This document shows positions 4,816 to 15,797 of a stretch of DNA of 39,319 nt, one piece after another. The notes beneath the pieces were generated by a model. That model ran no database searches, was not told the DNA's origin, and worked only from the letters and a program-made list of their open reading frames with translations. Both the position numbers and the translations under genes were made by a program. The number at the start of each line of letters is the position of its first letter. Position 1 is the first letter of the stretch. The stretch is taken from the IMG/VR virus record IMGVR_UViG_3300024999_000220, positions 1-39,319 of that record; one strand, given 5' to 3'. The DNA is from a virus.

Positions 4816-4922
4816 ATAAAATATAAGAATTAACTTTAATTTAAATATGGAGAAAATAAATGTGTTATTATTTGTAATAACTACTTTGTAAATAAATATT
4901 TTACTGTTTTTGGAGAATTTAA

Positions 4923-5999
4923 ATGACTAGAATAAAAGAACCTATACTTGTAATAGATGATGATCAATCTATATTGGCTGTTATAAGTACAATGTTATCT
5001 GTAATTGGGTTCGACAATATAATTAATGCTACTAAGGGAGTTGAAGGTATAGCCGCCTTTAAAAAATACTCACCACCAATAGTATTATTAGACATAAGTC
5101 TTCCTGATGCTATGGGTTTAGATTTAATGGATAAAATAAAAGCACTATATCCACCATCACAAATTATTATAATAACAGGTAACACTTGTAATGAGTTTGT
5201 GGTAGATGCTTTAAGAAAAGGTGCTTGTGATTTTATAACCAAACCAATAACACTAGAAATTTTAAAACATTCTGTAACTCAATGCCTAGAAAAACATGAC
5301 TTGGTAAGAGATAACCAGATGTATCAACAACAACTAGAAAAATTGGTTAAAGAAAGAACAGATAATCTAGCAGCAACAAATGAAAAACTAGCAGTAGCTA
5401 ACAAAGATTTAAGTAGTGTTTTATACAAAACTGTTGAAGCTTTATCAAAAACTATGGAGATACGTGACCCATACACAGCTGGGCACCAAAAACGCGTAAC
5501 GGCGTTAGCAATAAAAATATCCGAGTATTATGGCCTAGATGAATCCCAAATCGAACATATAAAACTGGCAGGTATGCTCCATGATATAGGTAAATTCTAT
5601 GTTCCGCAAGAGTTATTAGTTAAACCAACTAGATTAAGTGAAACAGAATTTAAATTATTAAAAAAACATGTCATAGAAGGATACAATATAATTAGTGATA
5701 TTCCTTTTGAAGCACCAATAGCCCGTATGGTATTACAACATCACGAAAGGCTAGATGGTTCTGGTTATCCTAATGGTTTAAGGGGTGACCAAATATCCAT
5801 AGAAGCTAAAATAATCAGTGTAGCTGATGTAGTAGAGGCTATGGCTTCACATAGACCATATAGGGCCTCTTTGGGTGTTACTGTGGCCATTGAAGAAATA
5901 GTAAAAGGTTCTGGTAAACTATACGACGATAAAGTCGTAGAGGCTTGTTTGGCGGTTATAAAAGCCTGTAATTATGATTTAGATATTATATTTAAATAA
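4923..5999 (+). CDS. Response regulator with HD-GYP c-di-GMP phosphodiesterase domain
   Basis: A 358-residue protein with a REC domain at residues 8-120 (acidic pocket D12/D13, phosphoacceptor D57 in VLLD, T85, K107), a coiled-coil linker at about 130-165 and an HD-GYP domain at 175-350. Catalytic signatures are intact: HDIGK at 220-224, H249, HHE at 273-275, GSGYP at 279-283 and D302. Characterised HD-GYP proteins hydrolyse cyclic di-GMP, and the REC domain would gate this by phosphorylation from a host kinase. No kinase is encoded nearby. The start has a GGAG site 8 bases upstream. The protein is cytosolic, with no membrane segment. Very likely an active enzyme judging by residues; its role in infection is inferred. 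Confidence 0.9.
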   Translation: MTRIKEPILVIDDDQSILAVISTMLSVIGFDNIINATKGVEGIAAFKKYSPPIVLLDISLPDAMGLDLMDKIKALYPPSQIIIITGNTCNEFVVDALRKGACDFITKPITLEILKHSVTQCLEKHDLVRDNQMYQQQLEKLVKERTDNLAATNEKLAVANKDLSSVLYKTVEALSKTMEIRDPYTAGHQKRVTALAIKISEYYGLDESQIEHIKLAGMLHDIGKFYVPQELLVKPTRLSETEFKLLKKHVIEGYNIISDIPFEAPIARMVLQHHERLDGSGYPNGLRGDQISIEAKIISVADVVEAMASHRPYRASLGVTVAIEEIVKGSGKLYDDKVVEACLAVIKACNYDLDIIFK

Positions 6000-6012: not shown

Positions 6013-6864
6013 ATGGCCAATAAAAAGGCAGTACTGATAGCTGAAGAAAGTTTAGCTATGATACAACTATACAAAGGATTACTGGCACCATACGACTGTG
6101 TAGTACATTCAGTTAGTAGTTTAAAAGAAGCCAGAGAACGTATGATGAGGTACGACTACGACTTATATATCATTGATACAATACTAGAAAATAAAGAAAG
6201 CGGTTTAGAGCTTGTGGGCAGAGGTGGTGCAGATCCTGATAAATGCCTTATATTATCTAGAAGCTTGCCAGAAGATACAGTAAGTGAATTGGTTGAATTT
6301 CATAAAGTACCAAGAGAAATGATTATGGTAAAACCTCCTGATGCTAGGGCATTTATAGTTATAGCCAATAAACATCTAAGAGGAGAAGCATCTCCTGACA
6401 ATATTATTATACCAACTACTAGTGTATCTAAACTCAGCGATAAACGTATTTTATATAGGATTAAACGATGGGTTTTAGGCCTTTCTTTTAAAGGTTGGAT
6501 AGCTATAATAAGTTTTATGCTTATATTACCTACAACAACAAATACAACAGCTAAATATTTTAGTTACAAGCAGCATCTAAAATTTGAACAAGAAAAAGTA
6601 GCTTATTGTGAAAAAGAATTTAAAAGTTTTAAACAAGGGGATACAGTAAGTAAAACCACATTTAGGGAAAGTACTATACTAGATGATGGTGATATGTACA
6701 TAATAAGGATATACCCAGATAATATTGTATTTGTTAAAATAATATATAAAGATAGGTTTTATTCAAAGGAACGTTGGATAGTTGGAGAAAATTATCTAAA
6801 AACTATTGGTTTAAATGAGAAAATGACTTTGTTAGATATATTAAAATCACTTATTATGTTTTAA
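6013..6864 (+). CDS. Receiver-like domain protein with membrane anchor
   Basis: A 283-residue protein. Residues 5-120 resemble a REC domain: an E11-E12 acidic pair, D55 in the phosphoacceptor position (IIDT) and K107 before Pro. The pocket uses Glu rather than Asp, so phosphorylation may be altered. One hydrophobic segment at about 161-173 (GWIAIISFMLILP) is probably a membrane anchor. The C-terminal 100 residues are a mixed alpha/beta region that I do not recognise. It begins 13 bases after the HD-GYP regulator, so the two are probably co-transcribed and may act in one signalling module; this is inference. Confidence 0.7.
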   Translation: MANKKAVLIAEESLAMIQLYKGLLAPYDCVVHSVSSLKEARERMMRYDYDLYIIDTILENKESGLELVGRGGADPDKCLILSRSLPEDTVSELVEFHKVPREMIMVKPPDARAFIVIANKHLRGEASPDNIIIPTTSVSKLSDKRILYRIKRWVLGLSFKGWIAIISFMLILPTTTNTTAKYFSYKQHLKFEQEKVAYCEKEFKSFKQGDTVSKTTFRESTILDDGDMYIIRIYPDNIVFVKIIYKDRFYSKERWIVGENYLKTIGLNEKMTLLDILKSLIMF

Positions 6865-7785: not shown

Positions 7786-7859
7786 TTTGTTTATATTAAT
7801 CTAACCATTATATAAGTAGATAAGGTATTAAAGAACTTCATTATTTTATGGTGATAACT

Positions 7860-8411
7860 ATGAATGAACTAAACGAATTAGAAGTATCCTCTACTATTAG
7901 AGACGCCTATTTACTTTTTTCAAAAGTAAATAAAGAAAGAAAAACTACACATGATTATAAGTCAATACACCCAGAGTATGTGGCTTGTTTATTAGCCAGA
8001 TTTGTAGATGATGAGGAAGTAATAGCAGCATCAATACTACAAAACATACTAACCTATGATGGTGTTGAAGTACAAGATATTTATGATTTATTCGGCAGTA
8101 AGATAACTAATCTTGTACTTGAATTAAACACACCAATTACACATAATACTGATGAAAACAAACTCGATAATTTAATTAAATGTTTAAATACCATGAGTAA
8201 AGAAGCCTTTACAATAAAAATGGTAAATAGGTTAAACGAGACTCTTGGTTTAATAAATACTATTATACCACATAGTTTTTTAAAACAACATTTGAAAGAT
8301 ACGTCATACATTATTAATACTATAAATAGGGAGATTGATGATATAAATATTAAAGTTATTGAACTACTTACTTTTTCTGTATTTTATGTAGAATTAACTA
8401 AAAATGTATAA
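7860..8411 (+). CDS. Degenerate RelA/SpoT-type HD domain protein
   Basis: A 183-residue protein read from the ATG at 7860 after a GGTGAT site; the ATG at 7848 is an alternative. The first 95 residues follow the RelA/SpoT hydrolase-domain pattern: an IHPEYVACLLA motif (HP-x-x-VA), then AASILQNIL and DIYDLFGSKITNLV. The position normally occupied by the metal-binding His-Asp (LLHD) is Gln-Asn here, so ppGpp hydrolase activity is probably lost. No synthetase domain follows. It may be a binding or regulatory pseudoenzyme. Family similarity is from pattern recognition; function is inferred. Confidence 0.6.
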   Translation: MNELNELEVSSTIRDAYLLFSKVNKERKTTHDYKSIHPEYVACLLARFVDDEEVIAASILQNILTYDGVEVQDIYDLFGSKITNLVLELNTPITHNTDENKLDNLIKCLNTMSKEAFTIKMVNRLNETLGLINTIIPHSFLKQHLKDTSYIINTINREIDDINIKVIELLTFSVFYVELTKNV

Positions 8412-8428
8412 GGAGAAATATTCAATAT

Positions 8429-9709
8429 ATGTTAAAAAATAAAAATATCTTAATTGATACAAATATATTATTAGATGACCCTAAAATATTATTTAAGTCG
8501 CTAAATAAATATGAAAAAGTAATAGTTCCATTAACAGTATTGAAAGAACTTGATAAACATAAATTTAATCCTGATTTATCTTATAGTGCTAGAACAGCAA
8601 TCTATGAAATAGTTGCTTTTAGAGAAGCACACCCAAACAGATTAGTGTTGGCTGTTGACAACGAGGAATTAAAAACAAACGATACTTTAATAATTGACGC
8701 GGCTATAAAAAATAAAGCCGACTTAGCCACAAAAGATTTGTCTATGTCAGTTATAGCGGCAACTAAGGGTGTGGACACTGTATTATATGATATTATACCA
8801 AACGGTATATTTAAACCATACATACATTTAGATATCAAAGATCTACCAGAGAACTTTACTTACTTACAAAATTACAGTTTATATGATTTTAATATAGAAT
8901 TACAATTAGACATAGACACTGAATGCTGGAAGTTTGTTATATTAAATAATGCTTACGTATATGCTACTAACCCTATTAAAGGCACAGTGTCACGTATAGA
9001 TAATATGCCTGAGTATAGAGAAGTTGTTGTGGAGGGTAATAAACTAAAAGCGCTGGATATATACCAAATATGTGCTATATACGCTATGACAGAAGCTGAC
9101 GGTGTTTTAATTACTGGTAAATGGGGAACAGGGAAAACTTTACTAAGCACAGCCTATGCCTTATCTTGCAACAGTGACAATAAAATATTTATCACCAGAC
9201 CTCCAATTGGTATAAGCCATAAATACGATATAGGGTTCTTGCCCGGTGATAAACAAGCAAAAATGGAAGCGTGGTTTGCTGGTATATTAAGTGCATTATA
9301 TTATCTATATGCTAATACCAGAAATCAAGGATCAAGTAAAGACCAAAATAGTATAAAGTATGATATAGTTAAGGATAGATACTTTCAAGATAAATTTGAA
9401 GCTGTGCCAATAAATGTAATTCAAGGTATGAGTATATTAGAATCAGACATAATGATTTGTGATGAATGCCAACTTATAGATATAGATACTATGAGTATGA
9501 TATTATCAAGGGCTAATAAAGGAAGTAAACTAATACTATTAGGTGATTTAGCACAAACATACAATGTTGTAAGACCTTCTGAATCAGGCTTACTAAAATT
9601 ATTAAGAATTCTACCACATAAAAGTTTAGCTTATGTTGAACTACCAAACTCACATAGAGGTGGTCTAATAGCACTAGCTGACTTACTACAAGATAAAAAA
9701 TTATGTTAA
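8429..9709 (+). CDS. phoH: PIN-PhoH fusion (PhoH2-like ATPase/ribonuclease)
   Basis: A 426-residue protein. An N-terminal PIN nuclease domain at about 5-125 has D10, N12, E40, D85/D90 and D103, the usual acidic metal-binding set. A PhoH P-loop ATPase domain at about 205-420 has Walker A GKWGTGKT at 230-237, the DIGFLPGD motif at about 267-274, Walker B IMICDE at 341-346 and LGDLAQ at 371-376. PhoH2 proteins couple RNA unwinding to PIN cleavage. phoH genes are common in phages. The start is preceded by AAGGAGA about 15 bases upstream, a long spacing. It acts in the cytosol, probably on RNA. Confidence 0.9.
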   Translation: MLKNKNILIDTNILLDDPKILFKSLNKYEKVIVPLTVLKELDKHKFNPDLSYSARTAIYEIVAFREAHPNRLVLAVDNEELKTNDTLIIDAAIKNKADLATKDLSMSVIAATKGVDTVLYDIIPNGIFKPYIHLDIKDLPENFTYLQNYSLYDFNIELQLDIDTECWKFVILNNAYVYATNPIKGTVSRIDNMPEYREVVVEGNKLKALDIYQICAIYAMTEADGVLITGKWGTGKTLLSTAYALSCNSDNKIFITRPPIGISHKYDIGFLPGDKQAKMEAWFAGILSALYYLYANTRNQGSSKDQNSIKYDIVKDRYFQDKFEAVPINVIQGMSILESDIMICDECQLIDIDTMSMILSRANKGSKLILLGDLAQTYNVVRPSESGLLKLLRILPHKSLAYVELPNSHRGGLIALADLLQDKKLC

Positions 9710-13732: not shown

Positions 13733-13778
13733 GTTTGTATAATAAACTTTAATGAACTAAAATATGAGAGGGATTAAT

Positions 13779-14768
13779 ATGAGTGTAGGTGTGGATGTTG
13801 GTACAAATTCTTTATGTGTGGCAAAAGTTGATGATGAGGGAAACCCGATATTCAAATTAGAGCGGGATGCTTTTTATAGATTAGTGCCAAAAAGTGAGGT
13901 TAATAGACAATCAATTAAAACGTCCCTAAGTAAGAGAGGTGTTAATTTTATTGAGGACGACGCAGACTTTTTAATTATTGGTGAGGACGCTCTTCACATA
14001 GCAATGGAACGTAATTGTAGTTCCAGCAGACCAATGTTAAATGGTGTTATATCACCTAAGGATAAAAACAGCTTACCTATGTTAAAGGTACTACTTTCAA
14101 ATTTAGTGGGTAGAGGTAATGGTAGTGACACATTAGTTTATTCTGTTCCAGCTAAACCAGTAGATGCTGTGTTTGATATTGTGTACCATCAAGAGATGTT
14201 AAATATGTTTTTTAGGGATCAGGGATATTCCCCTCAACCTATCAATGAGGCATTTGCCATTGGGTTATCAGAATTACTAGATGATGGTTTAACTGGTATT
14301 GCTTTATCGCTCGGCGCAGGTATGGCTAACATATCTGTAATTCATCAAGGTGACCCGTTGGTTGAATTCTCTGTTACAAGATCAGGAGATTTTATTGACC
14401 ATTCCGTAGGCACCGCCTTAGATATGTCCCCATCGTTGATTCAGTTAGAAAAAGAGTCAGGAATTGATTTGTATAATCCTAAGGATAAGATAGCAGAGGC
14501 CATAGCAGTTTATTACTCATCTGTGATAAATTATGTACTGCAAAACATTTCTTTTGAGCTTAAAAAGCAAGAAAAGAGACTACCCATTTTTAGAGAACCT
14601 GTGCCTATTATAGTTTCAGGTGGATTAACGTTGGCGGAGGGTTTTACCAGAATGTTTGAGGAGCGATTATCAGGTATTACATTACCTATGAAGATTAGTG
14701 AAATTAGAAGGGCTGCCTCACCTATGACTTGTGTAGCTGCCGGTTGTTTAATGGCATCTCAACTATAA
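13779..14768 (+). CDS. Actin-like ATPase (ParM/StbA-like)
   Basis: A 329-residue protein from the ATG at 13779, chosen because GAGAGGG lies 6 bases upstream; the ATG at 13764 lacks a site. The actin-fold motifs are in order: phosphate-1 GVDVGTNSLCVAKV at 4-17, a connect-1-like NEAFAIG at 156-162, phosphate-2 ALSLGAGMANISV at 175-187 and the adenosine motif PIIVSGGLTLAEG at 276-288. Such proteins polymerise with ATP to segregate plasmids or position phage DNA. Its place next to a long coiled-coil gene suggests a filament and adaptor pair. ParM-like assignment is by motif and the function is inferred. Confidence 0.8.
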   Translation: MSVGVDVGTNSLCVAKVDDEGNPIFKLERDAFYRLVPKSEVNRQSIKTSLSKRGVNFIEDDADFLIIGEDALHIAMERNCSSSRPMLNGVISPKDKNSLPMLKVLLSNLVGRGNGSDTLVYSVPAKPVDAVFDIVYHQEMLNMFFRDQGYSPQPINEAFAIGLSELLDDGLTGIALSLGAGMANISVIHQGDPLVEFSVTRSGDFIDHSVGTALDMSPSLIQLEKESGIDLYNPKDKIAEAIAVYYSSVINYVLQNISFELKKQEKRLPIFREPVPIIVSGGLTLAEGFTRMFEERLSGITLPMKISEIRRAASPMTCVAAGCLMASQL

Positions 14769-15315: not shown

Positions 15316-15797
15316 ATGAGTGAAGAAAGAATTAACGGAACAGTTAAATGGTTCATTATGTAGAGCCCTTTACATTGGTAACAATGTATCGAAACTCCTT
15401 TAATTGCTGGAAAATCTTAGCGAATAATGTCGAAGATAATCAGCAGCCAAGCCTCGTAAGAGGAAGGTTCAACGACTAGAGCGAAGGCTCGTAGGACCAA
15501 GTGGTCCGAAATGGGGAGAATCCTTAACAGGATTTTGATATAGTCTTTTCTTTATGGAAACATAAAGCAGCCTGCATAGGCGGGGTTAGTGTAACGAACT
15601 AACTCGAAAAAAATGTTAGTAATGACCGCGGATACGGCTTTGTGTTGATTGATGGTAATCCAGACGCAGAGTATTTTATCCACTTTACAAGTATTGATAT
15701 GGACGGCTATAAAACACTTAAAGCCGGCCAACCAGTAAGTTTTATTTTAAAGAATACAGAAAAGGGTATTCAGGCAACAGAAGTAAAGCTTTTATAA
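15316..15797 (+). CDS. Cold-shock domain protein, gene split by a group I intron
   Basis: Exon 1 is 15316-15356 and exon 2 is 15620-15797; spliced, they encode 72 residues, the normal size for a CspA-family protein. Exon 1 ends NGTVKWF plus two bases. Exon 2 continues NDRGYGFVLIDG, giving KWFINDRGYGFV, which matches the family spacing KWFNxxKGFGF (RNP1), followed by the RNP2-like YFIHFTSI. The last residues are QATEVKLL. These proteins are cytosolic single-stranded nucleic acid chaperones. An AAAGGAG site precedes the start. Unspliced RNA gives only 15 codons, to the TAG at 15361. The conserved Asn after WF is Ile here. Confident in the split gene; the exact splice sites rest on frame and pairing logic. 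Confidence 0.9.
15357..15619 (+). ncRNA. Group I self-splicing intron (IA-like), no internal ORF
   Basis: 263 nt. P1: exon GGTTCAT pairs with GTAGAGCC (one bulged A), placing U15356 opposite G15360, the expected U.G splice pair. P2: 15371-15377/15382-15388 with a GTAA loop. P3: 15395-15400/15513-15518. P4: 15405-15409/15441-15445. P5: 15414-15418/15433-15437. P6 hairpin: 15452-15455/15460-15463, GTAA loop. The R core GTTCAACGACTAGA is at 15467-15480; P7 is GACTA 15474-15478 with TAGTC 15541-15545. Two extra stems (15479-15490, 15494-15507) fit P7.1/P7.2 of subgroup IA. P8: 15519-15523/15530-15534. P9 hairpins: 15550-15567 (GAAA loop), 15570-15581, 15585-15603. It ends in G15619. The core is complete, so splicing is likely. 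Confidence 0.92.

Follow-up and report, generated by a model that had tools for sequence, protein, structure and literature searches.

A complete open reading frame on the plus strand (positions 4923–5999, ATG start) encodes P0001, a protein of 358 aa with the domain order REC–coiled coil–HD-GYP, and is preceded by a Shine-Dalgarno-like GGAG (4912–4915, plus strand) that was read from the sequence 7 nt before the ATG. The gene lies in a 39,319-nt stretch of DNA (IMG/VR record IMGVR_UViG_3300024999_000220, positions 1–39,319; hereafter the window), and its own phage is known solely as these 39 kb. P0001 consists of a receiver domain (residues 8–118, positions 4944–5276, plus strand; Pfam PF00072 Response_reg, E 6.6e-22), a long helical/coiled-coil linker (residues 119–173, positions 5277–5441, plus strand) delineated from a structure model and a sibling comparison, and an HD-GYP domain (residues 174–338, positions 5442–5936, plus strand; Pfam PF13487 HD_5, E 2.8e-39). 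With E-values of this order, neither domain match is due to chance. The window also encodes a terminase, a portal, a major capsid protein and a head protease, and is, judged by this gene content, a tailed-phage contig. It is collinear with ~156–199 kb of a sibling phage, G001, at ~80% nucleotide identity. Jumbo phages are defined by a genome of >200 kb, to be set against 39 kb for the window and 234 kb for the IMG/VR contig of G001. Host contamination or a prophage flank was rejected as the source of the gene, which sits within a phage contig and whose synteny is kept in the 234-kb sibling.

In the receiver domain, D12, D13, D57, T85 and K107 are all intact according to the residue table, which is the full defining set of a response-regulator receiver (acidic pair, phospho-acceptor Asp, Thr/Ser and Lys). 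The HD-GYP domain retains D182, H188, H220, D221, K224, H249, H273, H274, G281-Y282-P283 and D302, and Pfam, residues and fold agree on the motifs HDxGK, HHE and GYP together with the metal ligands. The AlphaFold2 model (pLDDT 92) matches the HD-GYP structures 9rbz, 4mcw (PmGH) and 4r8z (PA4781) as well as receiver domains, and catalytic residues were compared for PmGH. Set against the PmGH metal-ligand list (taken from PMC4159591), P0001 keeps seven of the eight ligands along with the catalytic Asp (D182) and Lys (K224), while Y184 stands at the position of the PmGH ligand E185. HD-GYP proteins with Tyr or Phe at this position make up a large subfamily predicted to be binuclear (PMC4159591), which places P0001 in the Y/F subfamily with a predicted binuclear site. 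An earlier note on this DNA had claimed a phage-encoded receiver plus HD-GYP protein with intact residues, and the Pfam matches, the residue table and the phage contig bear this out. Some HD-GYP proteins are known to work through protein–protein contact too (PMC4159591), as RpfG does with GGDEF proteins, and Y184 replaces one ligand of the trinuclear site; however, the intact catalytic pair and remaining ligands, and the normality of Tyr at the E185 position in that large subfamily, make it very improbable that P0001 is a non- or weakly catalytic protein of this kind.

The copy of P0001 in G001 is 94% identical (dN 0.03, dS ~1.2, dN/dS 0.025). When the domains are taken separately (dS near 1–2), dN/dS is 0.019 for the receiver and 0.024 for the HD-GYP domain, and these similarly low values imply that the switch and the enzyme are both under selection. 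Residues 121–165 of the linker show no difference from the sibling. The GC and GC3 of the gene match those of its neighbours, and this, together with the dS of ~1.2, led us to reject a recent transfer. The comparison thus shows a gene that is maintained by strong purifying selection and is old in its phage line.

Thirteen bp past P0001, a second plus-strand gene (6013–6864) encodes a receiver-like protein whose match to PF00072 (E 1.3e-6) falls just below the cut-off. Its divergent receiver-like N-terminus carries E11, E12, D55, S82 and K107 and is followed by a C-terminal domain; inspection points to one likely membrane helix near residues 161–180. The product shares 89% identity with its counterpart in G001 (dN/dS 0.11), and homologues were found only in this sibling among the 32 records searched. 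Its structure model was unreliable and was set aside. The protein is a possible second output of the P0001 operon.

An HD-GYP profile scan yielded 70 loci in viral contigs, and the best 80 loci listed were used from the genome collection, in which still closer bacterial relatives may be present. A tree of the HD-GYP domain only had a weak backbone, and a full-length REC-HD-GYP tree was used in its place. There, P0001 groups with its G001 counterpart and with proteins of two more phages, G051 and G052, in one phage clade (support 100/98), which is nested inside a Desulfobacterota clade (support 99/97) when the bacteria are the best 80 listed. Beyond the REC-HD-GYP gene, G051 and G052 match G001 mainly in receiver domains, in a C92 peptidase and a protein of 328 aa, and weakly in a tail protein. 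Because the clade is nested in bacteria and little else is common to G001 and G051/G052, the gene is read as a bacterial one that has since been shared among different phages, the later sharing having proceeded by exchange or from a common source. The earlier note had suggested transfer from a host and a phylogeny against bacterial HD-GYP proteins to find the donor. That phylogeny, now run, surrounds the phage clade with Desulfobacterota among the matches listed; the bacterial origin therefore stands, while on the evidence of the tree the transfer is not recent but ancient, with phage-to-phage sharing afterwards. The note's view that the domain pair is uncommon in phages needs correcting, as HD-GYP enzymes have already been described across jumbo phages (PMC7824862).

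The Desulfobacterota regulators (e.g., L193 from Desulfatirhabdium and L194 from Desulfobulbaceae) share with P0001 the full-length architecture, 39–43% identity and the same residues, whereas P0001 is phage-borne and belongs to its own phage clade. The best named model for P0001 is the NosR family (NCBIfam NF053512), but its 205.7 bits fall under the curated cut-off of 400. On the basis of this one gene tree, the host is probably a member of the Desulfobacterota. Many short database matches labelled as phage with HD-GYP were left out as evidence, as was the HD-GYP gene of Microcystis phage MaAM05, whose neighbours look cellular.

A receiver calls for a kinase, and G001 encodes a single histidine kinase. 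This hybrid of 1207 aa combines solute-binding, PAS, GAF, H-box and HATPase domains with a receiver and also has a CxxCH motif. It is kept at 69% in G002–G004; its neighbours are unchanged in the one of these contigs that was examined for them, and nearly all ORFs around it in G001 have relatives there; HD-GYP was not found in the fragments seen of G002–G004. In G051 and G052 the hybrid kinases measure 1442 and 1692 aa, and each lies beside a single-domain receiver gene and adjoins genes that look structural. Bacterial relatives of P0001 also tend to lie near kinases: among the matches listed, a kinase occurs within 3 kb of 14/35 REC-HD-GYP loci of the P0001 subfamily vs 5/45 loci of other architectures (Fisher p 0.0035), and kinase and REC-HD-GYP genes stand side by side in L206, where the kinase is a hybrid, and in L193. 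Own hybrid kinases in all three phage lineages of the clade, combined with this bacterial neighbourhood, make the phage's own hybrid kinase the likelier partner of P0001. A separate kinase-like gene with a probable intein (L019:9443–11017, minus strand, and L025:3297–4871, plus strand) is near-identical in two otherwise diverged phages.

The earlier note had P0001 gated by a host kinase, which would plug the phage enzyme into host signalling. Its bacterial relatives are indeed ordinary two-component regulators, and no histidine kinase occurs in the 39-kb window or beside the HD-GYP gene in G001, where the kinase (~20 kb), the HD-GYP gene (191 kb) and the riboswitch described below (205 kb) are not adjacent. 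No HPt protein was found in the phage records searched, so a relay from a hybrid kinase would be incomplete unless transfer is direct or passes through a host HPt. However, G001, G051 and G052 each encode a large hybrid histidine kinase of their own, which runs against that proposal, as does the finding that, among 47 terminase-related records picked without regard to kinases, only that of G001 has one. We thus regard a host kinase as an unlikely partner. The window's own phage presumably carries the kinase and riboswitch, by extension from G001.

Evidence on the messenger comes from the relatives of the window. A c-di-GMP-I-GGC riboswitch in G001 (aptamer at L017:5091–5169; 66.3 bits, cut-off 59, E 3.8e-13) lies ~25 nt upstream of the start codon (ATG) of a gene whose exported product matches Lcl_C weakly. 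The surrounding region (200–234 kb) fits the rest of the contig in its tetranucleotide profile, and a protein search of the viral collection found no relative of it in the other contigs examined. A Pistol ribozyme (L017:3662–3731, plus strand, 65.3 bits) is located ~1.4 kb 5′ of the riboswitch. G051 and G052 together encode nine PilZ-type proteins, eight of which carry both c-di-GMP-binding motifs; PilZ was not found in G000 or G001, and GGDEF was not detected in G000–G004, G051 or G052. In two phages other than G001 and that of the window (L124:2517–9462 and L125:918–9819), the REC-HD-GYP gene and an endolysin lie amid clusters of four to five PilZ-type proteins. The riboswitch in G001, the PilZ proteins in G051 and G052 and the lack of a phage GGDEF favour host-made c-di-GMP as the substrate, and c-di-GMP is thereby indirectly favoured as the messenger.

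HD-GYP enzymes can prefer 3′3′-cGAMP, and the best PDB sequence match of P0001 is V-cGAP3 (5z7c), a 3′3′-cGAMP phosphodiesterase. G001 also encodes a soluble PgpH-like HD protein (L019:735–1481, minus strand) with the motifs HDIGK and ENQ..NPHD and a match to the c-di-AMP enzyme Lmo1466 (4s1b) at E 5.3e-36; it is 87% conserved in G003 (dN/dS 0.04) and is likely a phage c-di-AMP phosphodiesterase. Such a protein in addition to the HD-GYP enzyme suggests a set of signal-destroying enzymes, and a role of this kind has already been predicted for jumbo-phage HD-GYPs (PMC7824862). P0001 might accordingly serve in counter-defence, destroying 3′3′-cGAMP or the cyclic oligonucleotide alarms of CBASS or type III CRISPR, with its receiver as a relic or a timing switch. 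Yet the receiver is conserved as strongly as the enzyme, and a constitutive defence enzyme would need none; PilZ proteins and a c-di-GMP riboswitch accompany its relatives; and the catalytic residues checked do not distinguish c-di-GMP from 3′3′-cGAMP, fitting either. We consider counter-defence doubtful, and the strongest of the alternatives.

The best explanation, to which we assign a probability of about one half, is that P0001 is an active, phosphorylation-gated cyclic-dinucleotide phosphodiesterase that is fed by a phage kinase and lowers the c-di-GMP that the riboswitch reads; enzyme activity, substrate, kinase–regulator pairing and host are here deduced from sequence. D57 of the receiver would be phosphorylated, most likely by the phage's own hybrid histidine kinase, and the signal would pass along the helical linker and switch the HD-GYP domain, which would then hydrolyse c-di-GMP inside the infected cell. 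The resulting drop may alter the surface behaviour of the host and, in the G001 line, may also be sensed by the phage itself via its c-di-GMP-I riboswitch. Points that weigh against this explanation are the V-cGAP3 match, the missing HPt, the distances between kinase, riboswitch and HD-GYP gene in G001, the G002–G004 fragments with a kinase but no HD-GYP, the lack of PilZ and GGDEF in G001, and a riboswitch region for which the other contigs examined hold no relative. The broader proposal, that some Desulfobacterota jumbo phages own a complete c-di-GMP circuit of membrane sensor hybrid kinase, REC-HD-GYP protein and riboswitch or PilZ readers, is a tentative one that we lean somewhat against.

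The single parts of such a system were each known before. Jumbo-phage HD-GYP enzymes, like P0001 predicted phosphodiesterases of the HD-GYP type, are read as anti-CBASS/CRISPR in PMC7824862, whose section on them gives this counter-nucleotide reading and mentions no kinase link; P0001, in contrast, has a classical receiver and a sibling with a kinase and a c-di-GMP riboswitch. In C. difficile prophages, as in G001, a phage gene stands under a c-di-GMP-I riboswitch aptamer, whereas the passage on these prophages describes no phage c-di-GMP enzyme or kinase (PMC3649979). A phage kinase/regulator gene is known from Alteromonas V22 (PMC7289586). We found no report in the open-access literature searched of a phage HD-GYP, a kinase and a c-di-GMP riboswitch together, and a phage HD-GYP in a kinase-linked, c-di-GMP-reading context appears to be new. 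Phage HD-GYP enzymes have so far been read mainly as weapons against host defence signalling. If their own sensor kinase gates the enzyme and phage RNAs or proteins read the result, phages would run second-messenger circuits and not just break them, and the virus would sense its environment or infection state and time its own genes via a host second messenger. Concrete genes are now in hand to test whether phages change c-di-GMP in infected sulfate-reducer-type bacteria.

Several other plus-strand features were observed in the window. The gene at 7848–8411 encodes a relative of RelA/SpoT-type HD proteins (HD_4) in which the HD motif is replaced by QN, and as an alarmone hydrolase it is thus probably dead. 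It is followed by a gene for a PIN–PhoH fusion protein (8429–9709). A 334-aa phage actin-like protein is encoded at 13764–14768 (Pfam Volactin, PF25216, E 9.6e-62). Group I introns are present at 15344–15567 and, on the minus strand, at two places in G001 (L016:426–645 and L010:11842–12064).
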